A stretch of 64,000 bases of DNA from Methanoculleus chikugoensis (lineage in GTDB: Archaea; Halobacteriota; Methanomicrobia; Methanomicrobiales; Methanoculleaceae): contig NZ_AP019781.1 in NCBI RefSeq assembly GCF_019669965.1, positions 1,240,001 to 1,304,000 of the forward strand. The letters run 5' to 3'. This document shows positions 3,451 through 57,570 of the stretch, one piece after another. Position 1 is the first letter of the stretch. The number at the start of each line of letters is the position of its first letter. The position numbers were made by a program, and so were the translations under genes. Under the pieces are notes generated by a model. That model ran no database searches. It saw nothing but the letters and a program-made list of their open reading frames with translations, and was not told the DNA's origin.

Positions 3451-6033
3451 TCAGAATCCATATTTTTGCCTTCTCATATCGAATGCGTCTTTACCCCCTT
3501 CAAGAATGGTTTGTACATGGGTTTTAATTGTATCCTTATCGATAACACCCCTGTCATTCACAAACCCATTCAGCCCATTAGACCTCATAACTAAAATTAA
3601 CTCTGCATCGCCCAAGACTGGGATGTTAGCATTATGTGTTGCTATTATTAATTGCCGGTGATTTTTGATTTCCCTAAGAATCTTCACGACTTGGCTATAA
3701 ATGAACGAGTTATCGAGCGAATCTTCAGGCTGGTCAATTATTAATGGAAAATCCCGCTCACACATGGCAATAGCAAGGATGGTTGTACACTTTTGACCAT
3801 CGGAACACTTAGAAATTTCCTTCCAAGAATGATCGTTTAATTCAATTGTTATCCTATCCTCAAGTTCGACAATCTCTAATTCAAATACTGCACCTTGAGC
3901 TAAAATAAGTGTTTTACCAGCTACATCTCCGGAAATGTGAGTTTTTGTCACCAACGAGTTGCTATCTCTATTCTTGATAATATTACATAAGTCCAATGGC
4001 TCAATGTTATCCGCAATTTTAACCCTATCATCCTTGTTTATTCTTATTTTAGAACTGCTTAATATCGTGTCTACTAGCAACTCTCTATATTTTGAGTTAT
4101 CACCGTTTTCCTTAATTTTAATACGGACAAATCCTCTCAAAGAATGGTTAATATTTCGGATTAGCTCTAATCGTCTAAGATAAATTCTCTTTCGGACATT
4201 TATTAACTTTTCAAGGAGGGCTATACGATCAGCGCTCAACAATGAGAGATCGGCCACATGGGTATCAACCTGTTGAGCCATGCTCTCTAATCTTTGTTTT
4301 TCCTGTTCTAAACGGAGATACTCTTGATAGTTCTTTATGGGTACACCGTTATTCTCTAGATTTGACAATAGGATATTGAGTTCTTCTTTCTTTTTGTTAT
4401 GCAACTGATTCCAGTTTCCTCGAACATCTAGTGTCTTTTTGTGACAATCATTTAAGCAATCAACTTGTTTTTGAATAGCATCTCTAATCTCATTTTTTGC
4501 TGCGATTAGAAGGCCAGTACAAATTTCTAAAAGGTCTTTATTGGGTAATAGGTCAAGATTTTCAATTTTAGGTGCTATAAGATCTTCTTGCTCAAATTTA
4601 ATTAATTCAGCCTGTTTCGAAGAAATCTCCGAAGTGATTATTGTCTCAATATTACTAAGAATGATTTCCTCCTGACTCCACAAGGGGTGATCTTTAAGTT
4701 GTTCTTTAATTCCTTGGGATTCAAATACCCTTAGTTGTTCACGTATTATATCCAAGTTTGATATTTTTAAATGCAAATCATCAACTTGATCAGATATTCT
4801 CATAATTTCCGCTTGATTGGTTTTAAGCTCGTTTATTATACGAGCCTTTTCCTCATTTAAGTCGTTTAAATTAATGTATTGATCAATCATTATTAACTGA
4901 TTTTTAAAATTCCGTGCAATATCTAATAATTCATTTTGACTGTAGACTTCAAAATGGAAAAACTCGTCACAAAATTTATGGAGATTTATCGTCGTTTCTT
5001 CACCATCTTCGCGGTAAATCTTTGGATTTTCATTATATCTTCTCTCAATTATGTATCTTTCCTGATTTTCTGCCTCAAGATAAAGTGCTACCTTTGCGTC
5101 GTGCAGGGCATATGCGATGTGAGACTCATGGTTTTGCTTAACTGTGGTACTAGAGGAAGATACACCTAAACAATACCGGATTAATTCAATAACGGTTGAT
5201 TTTCCTGTCCCCTTTCCACCTATAAGGCAATTTAAGTTTTTATTGAATCGTATCGGTTGACCATCAAGAAAGCCACCTTCGACACTCATGCCTAAAAAAG
5301 ACGGATGGTATAACTCTTCATCACCAGTTAAGCAGATTCTAGAACCGGGGTCACGGAGTGCTTGGCGAATCCCCTCAAAACTAGGTTTTCCCATTTTTAT
5401 TAAACAATACCTACGTCCGATATCTGCCAATGAATGAGCATCAGAGCTCTGTAGACAAGCGTAATCAGGGAATTTGGACTGTGTATCAGGTTGAGTTATC
5501 TCGATGCCATTTAACCATTCAGATTTGAGTATTGCTTCTTTTGTTGGGGTCAATTTTTTAATTTCGTAATCTAAGCCGGATTCTGAATCAATATGGGATA
5601 GTAACGCTATGCCATTGAATTTATAAATTGACTCCATTATATCAGGAATCGTTTTATTTGAAACGGCTTCAGACTGCCCTCTTAGATTGTGATAGATTCC
5701 AATATCCGATAGCAAATCGCTTATTGCCAGATATTCATTAGGGTCAAACAGGGCTAGCATATGTATTTGTCTCTCTCCCCCTTGAGAGGTGGTGATCTCA
5801 ACCCCAGGGATGACAAATAAGCGTGTACCCTTTGCGGCTTCTGCAACTTCTATGTATAAGCCTTCGGAGTTATGATCCGTTATAGCAATAATATCAAGGT
5901 TTTTGGCGAGCGCCGCTTTTACAATTTCTTCTGGTTGGACTTCCTTATCGCTATAGCATCCAGATTTAGGGGTATGAACGTGCAAGTCACAGCGATAGAA
6001 TCTTGCACCACTTTCAATGTTGGAGAGATCCAT
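3451..6033 (-). CDS. TrlF-like PHP-domain AAA/SMC-type ATPase
   Basis: An 860-residue protein. The N-terminus is a PHP metallo-phosphoesterase: CDLHVHTPKSG near residue 15, ITDHNSEG near 50, PGVEITT near 75, and SSDAHS near 195. An ABC/SMC-type ATPase follows: Walker A GGKGTGKST near 270, a long coiled coil (about 370-600), signature SDGQK near 745, Walker B LIIDQPEDSLD near 765 and H-loop ATHNANIP near 795. This order is that of the TrlF family, related in layout to RloC/PrrC-type ATPases with a nuclease module. I infer a nucleic-acid-sensing defence ATPase whose PHP domain is the effector. The ATG at 6033 directly precedes the PHP domain. Very AT-rich; island cargo. Confidence 0.75.
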   Translation of the reverse strand: MDLSNIESGARFYRCDLHVHTPKSGCYSDKEVQPEEIVKAALAKNLDIIAITDHNSEGLYIEVAEAAKGTRLFVIPGVEITTSQGGERQIHMLALFDPNEYLAISDLLSDIGIYHNLRGQSEAVSNKTIPDIMESIYKFNGIALLSHIDSESGLDYEIKKLTPTKEAILKSEWLNGIEITQPDTQSKFPDYACLQSSDAHSLADIGRRYCLIKMGKPSFEGIRQALRDPGSRICLTGDEELYHPSFLGMSVEGGFLDGQPIRFNKNLNCLIGGKGTGKSTVIELIRYCLGVSSSSTTVKQNHESHIAYALHDAKVALYLEAENQERYIIERRYNENPKIYREDGEETTINLHKFCDEFFHFEVYSQNELLDIARNFKNQLIMIDQYINLNDLNEEKARIINELKTNQAEIMRISDQVDDLHLKISNLDIIREQLRVFESQGIKEQLKDHPLWSQEEIILSNIETIITSEISSKQAELIKFEQEDLIAPKIENLDLLPNKDLLEICTGLLIAAKNEIRDAIQKQVDCLNDCHKKTLDVRGNWNQLHNKKKEELNILLSNLENNGVPIKNYQEYLRLEQEKQRLESMAQQVDTHVADLSLLSADRIALLEKLINVRKRIYLRRLELIRNINHSLRGFVRIKIKENGDNSKYRELLVDTILSSSKIRINKDDRVKIADNIEPLDLCNIIKNRDSNSLVTKTHISGDVAGKTLILAQGAVFELEIVELEDRITIELNDHSWKEISKCSDGQKCTTILAIAMCERDFPLIIDQPEDSLDNSFIYSQVVKILREIKNHRQLIIATHNANIPVLGDAELILVMRSNGLNGFVNDRGVIDKDTIKTHVQTILEGGKDAFDMRRQKYGF

Positions 6034-53083: not shown

Positions 53084-53341
53084 ATGGCCTATACGGTGAT
53101 CTGGACCGAAAAAGCCCTTAAAAACCTGAAACAACTCCCCCGCGAAACTGCTGCGAGGATCGTTGCAGCCGTCGAGAAGATCCGCGACAACCCCCTCGAT
53201 CACCTGCACCCGTTGCGAGGATCTCCCTACTTCAAACTGCGGGTAGGAAATTACCGCGTCATTCTGGACTTACGAAAGAAGATCATGATTGTGTACGTGA
53301 TCAAGGTCGGGAAGCGGGAGAATGTGTACGACAGGATCTGA
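53084..53341 (+). CDS. RelE/ParE-family toxin
   Basis: 85 residues: YTVIWTEKALKNLKQLPRET, HPLRGSPYFKLRVGNYRVIL and VIKVGKRENVYDRI are the RelE core with basic catalytic residues. It cleaves mRNA on the ribosome when free. Forms a standard type II module with the preceding antitoxin. Confidence 0.9.
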   Translation: MAYTVIWTEKALKNLKQLPRETAARIVAAVEKIRDNPLDHLHPLRGSPYFKLRVGNYRVILDLRKKIMIVYVIKVGKRENVYDRI

Positions 53342-54736: not shown

Positions 54737-55036
54737 AACGTATTCACCTCTGGCGTGCTCTATGACGGTCCGGTGGTTATTAACCCGTCGGCGAATACCC
54801 GACAACTCTTGATGAGGTTGTCGCAGTGGCTTAGCCCGTCCCAAGTAGACCTTGCTTTCTCTGGAAGTAACTTGCTCTGACAGTGGATTCAGATCATTGT
54901 CATTGTTTTTGGAAGAAGTAAGTGAAGGCCTTTCTTAGTGCGAAACGTGCTTCGAAGATGTTTACAACTAACTTTGAGTATAAAAGTATAGCTTTATATG
55001 TCCTTGCGTTAACACCCCCTTTAAGAGTAATCGACG
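54737..55036 (+). promoter_or_regulatory. Promoter of the QueC-like operon
   Basis: The base composition turns AT-rich after about 54845. TATAAAAG at 54979-54986 is a strong TATA box; TTTATATG at 54993-55000 is an alternative. The ATG at 55037 follows 36-50 bases later with only a weak ribosome-binding site. Confidence 0.6.
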
Positions 55037-55489
55037 ATGGGTAGTCAGAATAGATCAAGTCTAAGCGCTACAGGGCCTGGAATTGCTCATTATCCAAAAC
55101 GCCAGATCGGTCAAATTGAAACCGCAGTGAGTGATACTCCCACTGAGGCTGGCCGGGTAGTTGCTGCAAAAATTCTATTGAGCGTATTTGCCCCCGCAAG
55201 TTCCTTCTTTGCAATCGCAGTTGCTGCTATCCTTTTGATTACCATTCTACAAAAAGTCGCTCATTATGCAGAAATAGCTGAAAGGGAGGGTACCGACGCA
55301 GCAATGTCTGAAATTATGGAGGATGTCGCAAAAGGGGTGATTCACCAGTATCTAACCGATTCTGCTATGGATTTAATCGTTGATTCAGAAAACATATCTC
55401 CACAGTACAAGGAGCAACTGGAAACGATCATGGGAATGGTCATCGATCAGGGTATTGATAGTGTTGAAGAGGCGTTTTTGAATGAGTAA
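55037..55489 (+). CDS. Single-TM protein with Met-Gly-Ser N-terminus (QatB-like candidate)
   Basis: 150 residues starting MGSQNRSSLSATGPGIAHYP. A flexible, Ser/Gly-rich N-terminus (1-45) precedes one strong membrane segment (about 47-75) and a helical cytoplasmic tail. Met before Gly is normally removed, leaving an N-terminal glycine. Substrates of QueC-like enzymes in Qat and type IV CBASS systems, as I recall them, also present an N-terminal Gly after Met. The stop overlaps the next gene by eight bases. Role as substrate of the downstream QueC-like enzyme is inference; no family recognised. Confidence 0.6.
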   Translation: MGSQNRSSLSATGPGIAHYPKRQIGQIETAVSDTPTEAGRVVAAKILLSVFAPASSFFAIAVAAILLITILQKVAHYAEIAEREGTDAAMSEIMEDVAKGVIHQYLTDSAMDLIVDSENISPQYKEQLETIMGMVIDQGIDSVEEAFLNE

Positions 55490-55772
55490 TAAATTTGACA
55501 CAAAATTTGAAGAAGTCTTATATGTTATTTTAGTCGATTACGCAGCAAAAACGCTGAACTCTGAAGAAATTGCTCCAAAGTTCAAGTCAAGGGCTGTCGA
55601 AGAAAGAAGGGCCATAAAGGAAATGATTCTAAAAAAATTGCAGGAAGCCGTAAAAAGGATCGGGAAAGAGCTTTCTGAACACAGTCTTTCGGATCCACAA
55701 ATGATTGTCACGCACAAAGAAGAGGTAAGGAAAATAATTATCCAAGTTGTCAGAGGCAATCATGAAAATTGA
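55482..55772 (+). CDS. Small helical protein of the QueC-like operon
   Basis: 96 residues, all predicted helical (KFEEVLYVILVDYAAKTL, AIKEMILKKLQEAVKRIGKE), no membrane segment. It overlaps both neighbours (8 and 11 bases), so the three are translated together in stoichiometric amounts. Probably an adaptor. Unrecognised. Confidence 0.6.
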   Translation: MSNKFDTKFEEVLYVILVDYAAKTLNSEEIAPKFKSRAVEERRAIKEMILKKLQEAVKRIGKELSEHSLSDPQMIVTHKEEVRKIIIQVVRGNHEN

Positions 55773-56991
55773 CAAAGCGCTAGTTGAAAATTACAAACTG
55801 AATATCAACAGTGGGCAGATAAATCGTTTTTTCTTTAGTGAAGGAAAGAACGCTCCAGTACGAAAGAGGTTGCCTGCAAGGCTTGATGATTTTGTCAGAA
55901 TAATCATGTATTGCAACTTCATTGATCGACTAAATGTTTGTGCGAGAGATGAGCAACACCAAATTGAAATTCCCGTATACGATCTCCCATTTTGGAAGGG
56001 TGAAGAAGAACAGCTGATTAAAATCTTATGGTCTCTTTATCGACGAGATTTTTCTCTGGACTTTCTTTGTGATACATCGCAGAAGCCAAAAACACAGATT
56101 CAAATGAAACTTTTTGATGAGGGTCAACGAGAACTTCTATTGTTTTCTGAAGGATTGGATAGTATCGCGGCAGCGACTGAGTTTCCAAAAGCAACATTAG
56201 TCCATGTCGTAAAATCCACCTACACAGAATCACATATGAAAAATGTGATGAATCTTTTCCCTGAACGGAAAATCGAAACGATCACTTATGGTTTAAGGGG
56301 AGAAAATTTGCCTCTCGATACTGGTATCTCGAATTCAAGAGGTTTAATTTTTCTCGGATTGGCATCGATTCATCTTTACTTGAATAAATCAAATACGCTT
56401 ATTACCGGGGAAAATGGAGTGATGATGCACAATCCTCCCCTATTCGAAGGTTCAAAACCCACAAGAACAATGGATCCTAATTTTGTTCGCTTACTGCAGG
56501 GATTATTGTCCGATATTTATGGAGAAGATATTCAGATCAAAACACCTTTCTTAAAGATGACGAAAAAAGAGGTCCTTGAAATTGCAAAACAAAACCTGAA
56601 AGAAAACTTCAAAACAGCAATTGAATGCAGTTATTCATGTTTTAGCCAGCAGCCGCGGGGGAATGAAACGAAGATGTGCGGACGATGTTGTGCTTGTTTA
56701 CTGCGTACAATTTCAATACGATCTCTTCAGGGGTATGATAACTCAACGTATGAGCGATCTCCCTTCTCAGAAGACTTCAGCGATGGGAAAGGCGCAGTAA
56801 ATGTAATGGACTTAATGCGTTTTTCAAGGGGTGTCTTGCAATACAAGCTCCCTTATGTTGCTGCAAAAATTGTTAAGCAGGATGAAGAGCTGTTTCACCG
56901 ATTCGCCCAAGATGTTATGGACACAATAAGAAATGTCCCGGAAAAGTCTTACCACCTGAAAATTGAATCCGAAAGGCCTATTTTTCTGTGA
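55762..56991 (+). CDS. QueC-like enzyme (QatC/Cap9-type)
   Basis: 409 residues from ATG at 55762. The PP-loop reads LLFSEGLDSIAAA near 129-135, a variant of SGGxDS with Glu in place of the second Gly. Near 288-313, CSYSC...MCGRCCAC gives the C-terminal zinc-binding cysteines of QueC (7-cyano-7-deazaguanine synthase). The 125-residue N-terminal extension is absent from housekeeping QueC and typical of defence-associated QatC/Cap9 proteins. No other queuosine or archaeosine gene is nearby. So it more likely modifies a protein or nucleic acid in a defence role than makes preQ0. Low GC, inserted between two SRPBCC genes. Confidence 0.75.
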   Translation: MKIDKALVENYKLNINSGQINRFFFSEGKNAPVRKRLPARLDDFVRIIMYCNFIDRLNVCARDEQHQIEIPVYDLPFWKGEEEQLIKILWSLYRRDFSLDFLCDTSQKPKTQIQMKLFDEGQRELLLFSEGLDSIAAATEFPKATLVHVVKSTYTESHMKNVMNLFPERKIETITYGLRGENLPLDTGISNSRGLIFLGLASIHLYLNKSNTLITGENGVMMHNPPLFEGSKPTRTMDPNFVRLLQGLLSDIYGEDIQIKTPFLKMTKKEVLEIAKQNLKENFKTAIECSYSCFSQQPRGNETKMCGRCCACLLRTISIRSLQGYDNSTYERSPFSEDFSDGKGAVNVMDLMRFSRGVLQYKLPYVAAKIVKQDEELFHRFAQDVMDTIRNVPEKSYHLKIESERPIFL

Positions 56992-57078
56992 TATACTGTT
57001 TGCACACGGTCCGCGCCGAGGCTGCCTCCGGGTTTCTCCCCGGAGGCAAAATCCATGTGTTACGGTTATGGACCGCCG

Positions 57079-57570
57079 CTACCTTGCCGACGCCGCCTGT
57101 TTCAACGACTGCAGGAGCCCGGCAAGCCGTTCCAGGGGCTCGATCATCTCTTCCTGCGATCCCGCCTGGAGCATCCCGTCGCGGTCCTCGACCGACTGGA
57201 AGATCAGGTGGTCGGTCAGCTTCGTCCTGCCGCCGCCAAGGTCTTCGAGCGTCTCCGTCTCGAGCAGGACATGGCCCGGCATGGCATCGTACTCGAAGGT
57301 GTCGACGATCCGCCCGGGCGTAACCTCATGGTATACGCCGTGGAACGCGTACTCGTTTCCCTCGGCATCGCGCTGGACGGCACGCCACATCCCGCCGGGC
57401 CTCGTGTCCATCTTCTCGACCGTGGTCGTGACGCCCTTTGGCCCCCACCACTGCGATACCAGCCCCGGGTCCGTGCATGCCTTGAACACGAGGTCCTGCG
57501 GGGCATCGAACTCCCGTGAGATGACGATATCCTGTTTTCCCGATTCAGCGATGAGATTTGTTTCTGCCAT
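57079..57570 (-). CDS. SRPBCC/AHSA1-family protein
   Basis: 163 residues from ATG at 57570 with GGAGGGAGAA upstream. EFDAPQDLVFKACTDPGLVS and QWWGPKGV are the AHSA1 signature. Paralogue of the gene at 54236, both minus strand. They flank the AT-rich operon, suggesting that operon was inserted between once-adjacent genes. Confidence 0.88.
   Translation of the reverse strand: MAETNLIAESGKQDIVISREFDAPQDLVFKACTDPGLVSQWWGPKGVTTTVEKMDTRPGGMWRAVQRDAEGNEYAFHGVYHEVTPGRIVDTFEYDAMPGHVLLETETLEDLGGGRTKLTDHLIFQSVEDRDGMLQAGSQEEMIEPLERLAGLLQSLKQAASAR

Follow-up and report, generated by a model that had tools for sequence, protein, structure and literature searches.

A three-gene archaeal operon that pairs a QatC-like enzyme with a probable split QatB: a candidate minimal Qat-like immune module

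The window analyzed here is a stretch of 64,000 nucleotides from Methanoculleus chikugoensis (contig NZ_AP019781.1, positions 1,240,001 to 1,304,000), a genome of ~2.6 Mb in one contig. It carries a compact operon of three genes, termed p1, p2 and p3, within an acquired cassette. The features are as follows, in window coordinates:

54801-57084, no strand: acquired cassette, 41% GC, approximate ends from blastn against the flanks of G004, G012, G008, G010 and G005
54988-54999, plus strand: TATA-like AT-rich stretch (CTTTATATG region) 5' of p1, read from the sequence; a possible archaeal promoter
55037-55489, plus strand: p1, 150 aa, N-terminus MGSQNRSS (Met-Gly-Ser)
55482-55772, plus strand: p2, 96 aa, helical
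55762-56991, plus strand: p3, 409 aa, QatC-like enzyme

The three open reading frames are those given in a first-pass annotation of this DNA, and the ORF list of the window confirms that p1 overlaps p2 and that p2 overlaps p3. An in-frame TAA three codons upstream of the ATG at 55037 fixes the start of p1, so that its true N-terminus is Met-Gly. For p3, an alternative TTG start lies upstream at 55747, and the ATG at 55762 agrees with the start used in a relative. Slightly 5' of the cassette is a ParE-type toxin gene (53084-53341; Pfam 6.4e-12), and the ORF before it ends in a likely antitoxin.

The first-pass annotation also took the operon to be horizontally acquired, a view that comparison with related genomes bears out. 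The cassette has a GC content of 41% against 54.7% for the window, and it is flanked on both sides by SRPBCC/AHSA1-type genes. In G004, a close relative whose flanks are 94-96% identical, blastn finds ~54801-57084 absent and ~114 bp in its place; the same comparison of flanks shows the cassette to be absent from the site in G012, G008, G010 and G005 too. Its distribution is sporadic: among 35 genomes of the genus, two have the cassette, at an identical site and with p3 proteins that are 87% identical. No integrase or transposase gene lies within the cassette, and the only repeats at the insertion ends are 8 bp long and likely due to chance.

p3 matches the Pfam QueC profile (3.9e-11) and the PADLOC QatC profile (3.8e-22), and scores 94.7 bits against NCBIfam QatC (NF041925), below the equivalog cut-off of 280. 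The features noted in the first-pass annotation are all present, namely an extension at the N-terminus, the SEGLDS PP-loop and zinc cysteines (C289/C306/C309/C312), as are a C-terminal extension and a T234-R235-T236 motif. An AlphaFold model built from an alignment of 26 related sequences (mean pLDDT 75.9, pTM 0.81) matches the solved QatC structure 9y01_B over 403 columns in a structure search (E 8.3e-14, TM 0.63), with weaker matches to QueC 2pg3 (1.6e-5) and to Cap9 9nto (3.5e-5), the latter in the core only. The alignment retains the PP-loop Ser/Gly/Asp/Ser, the adenine-side Arg, the conserved Thr-Lys and the zinc cysteines, and T234 and T236 align with the QatC threonines, placing Thr-x-Thr where QueC has its Tyr/Asp (YPDC) site. 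The roles of the QatC active-site residues, including the Thr-x-Thr that replaces the QueC Tyr/Asp site, have been described (PMC13279940). Together, the sequence and the predicted structure indicate that p3 resembles QatC over its full length and is more than a simple QueC. Because the Thr-x-Thr site is unlike that of QueC and Cap9, any group that p3 attaches need not be a 7-deazaguanine. The variant PP-loop singled out earlier is indeed found in p3, but it is a local variant: the second position is variable, with SEGLDS in the window, SGGADS in Methanosarcina and SGGLDS or SDG[L/I]DS in haloarchaea.

The p1-p2-p3 order recurs in 14 complete copies, comprising those of two Methanoculleus genomes, that of Methanosarcina sp. 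KYL-1 (L009/L029) and 11 haloarchaeal copies from 10 genomes. Its return in such widely diverged archaea shows that the arrangement is more than chance. The unit is nevertheless rare: enzyme matches occur in 13 of 391 haloarchaeal genomes, in 1 of 238 from the class of Methanosarcina and in 2 of 232 from the window's own class. The second position of p1, the glycine to which the first-pass annotation drew attention, is kept in 15 of 15 p1 genes, that is, in the complete operons and in one Natrinema salinisoli plasmid copy (L115) that has an in-frame stop in p2 (3843-4250) and an intact p1 and p3; this last copy may be decaying. Large plasmids of Natrinema, Halobiforma and Halolamina bear some of the copies, and the genes are annotated there as hypothetical proteins or as 7-cyano-7-deazaguanine synthase. 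Natrinema sp. DC36 has near-identical operon copies on two separate plasmids (L119 and L120). Scans of IMG/VR returned no three-gene copy; QatC, QueC and the Met-Gly-His family described below were found there. Among phage and plasmid records matching a window protein, the neighborhoods examined were full qatABCD loci.

All 14 complete copies are without QatA and QatD, and neither gene adjoins any relative's three-gene copy. A KAP ATPase of the QatA type is absent from the operon and from the whole M. chikugoensis genome; no QatD TatD nuclease lies in the operon, and the sole TatD gene of the genome is ~142 kb distant. Gene content and conserved order thus agree with the reduced Qat-like system, lacking QatA and QatD and equipped with a Met-Gly partner, that the first-pass annotation had proposed. 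Qat itself is a bacterial system of defense against viruses, whose enzyme is proposed to tag a partner protein at its first amino acid.

Several lines of comparison suggest what p1 and p2 might be. Their summed length is 243-300 aa, compared with ~228-300 aa for QatB in the loci studied. Against QatB, a profile of p1 covers columns 1-167 and one of p2 covers columns 146-246, and each exceeds 150 of 150 column shuffles in score. Joined in genomic order, p1+p2 aligns over positions 1-295 to QatB columns 1-249 of 251 with a score of 36.5; the best of 60 shuffles reaches 15.0 and the reversed sequence 23.7, and with the order swapped to p2+p1 only the p2 portion aligns (27.7). When a QatB model made from 35 diverse proteins was run on 9,244 ORFs from the loci, the haloarchaeal p2 proteins were the top non-QatB matches (E 0.0037-0.077, columns 158-237), followed by one p1 (E 0.25, columns 1-116); with a redundant model of 45 sequences, p2 could not be told from noise. 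We therefore consider that p1 is probably the N-terminal half, and p2 the C-terminal half, of a QatB equivalent. The p1 of Methanoculleus is reached by a haloarchaeal p1 model at E ~1, yet is among the best remaining matches, and the window p1 and p2, taken singly, have no significant match to the 35-protein model among the 9,244 ORFs. Since these two proteins are too diverged to reach significance alone, it is from their gene order, size and Gly2, together with weak similarity, that they are assigned as a split QatB. The putative substrate that had been read as a new membrane protein would thus probably be one part of a divided QatB, as the half-matches of haloarchaeal p1 and p2 suggest. The description of p2 as a small helical protein holds, and it missed the probable kinship with the C-terminal half of QatB.

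The foremost alternative is that neither p1 nor p2 is related to QatB, and that the operon is a separate QueC-based system whose two small partners share only a convergent Met-Gly start. The insignificance of the window p1 and p2 matches taken alone favors it, as does the enzyme tree, which places the three-gene enzymes outside the QatC clade. In that tree the haloarchaeal set forms one supported clade and the Methanoculleus and Methanosarcina p3 proteins sit on long branches; a single origin of the three-gene enzymes (p-AU 0.21) is neither rejected nor shown. The model of p2, which has four helices (pLDDT 80.6), likewise found nothing significant and no QatB in a Foldseek search of the PDB, a search made with a generic helical shape that was modeled from an alignment of two sequences. 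By contrast, the joined p1+p2 is co-linear with the entire QatB, above the shuffled, reversed and swapped-order controls, and in the search with the QatB model the best-placed proteins below QatB itself are haloarchaeal p2 and p1, each in the matching half. We regard convergence as rather unlikely on this balance. A related scheme, in which p2 presents the acceptor p1 (membrane-anchored in Methanoculleus) within a separate QueC-based protein-tagging immunity and modification of p1 is the immune switch, seems to us similarly doubtful.

In our judgment the operon is probably a minimal Qat-like immune module with a split QatB, p3 modifying Gly2 of p1 while docked via p2. In Pseudomonas QatB, Gly2 is essential and lies in an unstructured N-terminal tail, and helices 6-8 pack against QatC; QatB and QatC alone protect against some phages, and the reaction of QatC has yet to be reconstituted (PMC13279940). 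If p1 and p2 are the QatB halves, p1 would carry the acceptor and p2 would supply the larger part of the docking surface. From this we infer a modification of Gly2 and its chemistry, a p1-p2-p3 complex and an antiviral effect, along the following course. Removal of the initiator Met from p1 would leave a free amino group on Gly2. p2, as the equivalent of the QatB C-terminal half, would dock on p3 and so bring p1, with its flexible Met-Gly tail, to the p3 active site. With ATP, p3 would activate a carboxylate, either 7-carboxy-7-deazaguanine or a related compound, and couple the activated group to the Gly2 amino group of p1; the modified p1-p2-p3 complex would then be the antiviral unit, without QatA or QatD. 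The 7-carboxy-7-deazaguanine pathway is available in this genome, since queD-queE-queC is present.

It had also been proposed that p1 is a single-TM protein and that the system is a membrane-acting version of Qat. As a rival to the split-QatB module, this would make p1 a membrane effector: anchored in the membrane and switched or targeted by Gly2 modification, it would act on that membrane when the cell is infected. The window p1 does contain one strongly hydrophobic segment of 19 residues (Kyte-Doolittle 2.4), and a transmembrane-grade helix is found in p1 of both Methanoculleus carriers (2.4-2.5). The remaining p1 proteins, however, peak at ≤1.3, so that a membrane anchor is dispensable for the family. 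The helix therefore stands as a feature of the Methanoculleus lineage, membrane action is rejected as a general principle, and we hold a membrane effector to be a less probable explanation than convergence on a Met-Gly start.

The genes found beside the three-gene copies point indirectly to defense. In one haloarchaeal locus (L117) a CD-NTase with a Cap15 effector, by profile, adjoins the operon, and the same genes lie by L010 and L114. Mrr endonuclease and ThsB (Thoeris) are neighbors in L118, type I restriction and GmrSD in L009, and a Dsr1-like protein and a restriction endonuclease in L149. The CD-NTase and two-TM Cap15-type effector form a short CBASS (L117 5668-7220, L114 5943-7492, L010 9595-10491) that starts within ~60 bp after the haloarchaeal three-gene operon.

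An addiction pair on a mobile element, like a toxin-antitoxin system in which p3 modifies and neutralizes p1, would suit small overlapping genes, an acquired insert and carriage on haloarchaeal plasmids. We think it very unlikely, as p1 and p2 are without a toxin-like domain, the neighbors are antiviral systems and the nearest relative of known function is a defense system.

Least credible of all is a metabolic role, in which p3, as a member of the QueC superfamily, synthesizes preQ0 or a different 7-deazaguanine destined for tRNA or DNA, with the small genes as accessories: the same genome has a canonical queD-queE-queC run elsewhere (C1:2571933-2573561), to which p3 is not linked, so that archaeosine does not need p3; the p3 site is the Thr-x-Thr of QatC and not the Tyr/Asp of QueC; QatC failed to substitute for QueC in E. 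coli (PMC13329287); and within the genus p3 occurs in just two of 35 genomes. On the strength of the separate queDEC genes we rejected p3 as an archaeosine supplier. Neither of the two findings that the first-pass annotation had named as fatal to its own reading, homologues without Gly2 and an enzyme making preQ0 for archaeosine, was therefore borne out.

A literature search turned up no description of a split-QatB form or of one in archaea; archaeal QueC clusters 7, 8 and 10 have been mentioned in one study and left unanalyzed there (PMC13329287). Our comparison indicates that the QatB-QatC core, recently shown to suffice for defense in the laboratory, occurs alone in nature and in archaea. 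A divided substrate would allow acceptor and docking part to change independently, and a small three-protein system may serve the question of which reaction QatC catalyzes. Current annotation misses the module, as its copies are labeled hypothetical protein or preQ0 synthase and fall under the NCBIfam QatC cut-off.

Among known systems, canonical QueC, the preQ0 synthase, shares with p3 the core fold, the PP-loop and the zinc cysteines; p3 differs in lacking the Tyr/Asp site and in having extensions, and the genome has a separate canonical gene. Type IV CBASS (PMC11996544) likewise couples a QueC-fold enzyme, Cap9, with a partner that has an N-terminal glycine acceptor. There, however, Cap9 is a short enzyme that retains the Tyr/Asp site of QueC, the substrate is a CD-NTase and the system has Cap10. 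Neither a Met-Gly CD-NTase nor a Cap10 TGT-like gene adjoins the window operon. Some haloarchaeal copies do have a neighboring CD-NTase, but this protein begins with MISRAKL and has Cap15 as its partner.

Two further arrangements came to light in the loci. In a second QueC-like family, a partner of ~260 aa that starts Met-Gly-His-x-x-Leu/Val-Gly-x-Leu-Pro, and has no Pfam or PADLOC model, lies directly 5' of a QatC-related enzyme of ~570-700 aa; these two-gene units occur in many phyla and on contigs classed as viral (L028 5148-7860, L030 5082-7566, L037, L039, L041, L043, L044, L049, L074, L078, L079 and L081; from IMG/VR, L126-L128, L130, L135 and L137), and their enzymes form one clade in the tree. 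Chryseolinea sp. H1M3-3 (L018 4304-7700) has a QatC-like gene with a short, 184 aa Met-Gly-Thr-Ser partner, a FokI-like gene upstream and an overlapping 207 aa gene without known identity downstream, and is possibly another variant.

Actinomycetes commonly have QatB-QatC pairs without a QatA or QatD gene detected in the vicinity (L019, L021, L045, L048, L050, L051, L060, L064, L070, L075, L082 and L091-L095), and the enzymes of these pairs form one clade. Four that we compared with the archaeal operon (L019, L021, L050 and L064) share with it the lack of a nearby QatA or QatD, and their partner starts Met-Gly-Thr-Ser, of which Met-Gly is common to p1. The actinomycete pairs differ in being bacterial, in having a single-gene QatB of ~260 aa and in having enzymes that fall inside the QatC clade.

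The closest comparison is with qatABCD itself (PMC13279940). Both have a QatC-type enzyme with both terminal extensions, Thr-x-Thr and zinc cysteines, and both have a gene for a Met-Gly partner directly 5', where p1 and p2 together match QatB in length and order. The archaeal unit differs in that it is without QatA and QatD and has its QatB equivalent in two genes, and in that p3 scores far under the NCBIfam QatC cut-off and belongs to lineages outside the QatC clade. As QatA and QatD were looked for and are absent, we call the operon a Qat-like variant and not a member of qatABCD; this absence does not weaken the proposal of a mode of action like that of the QatB-QatC core.
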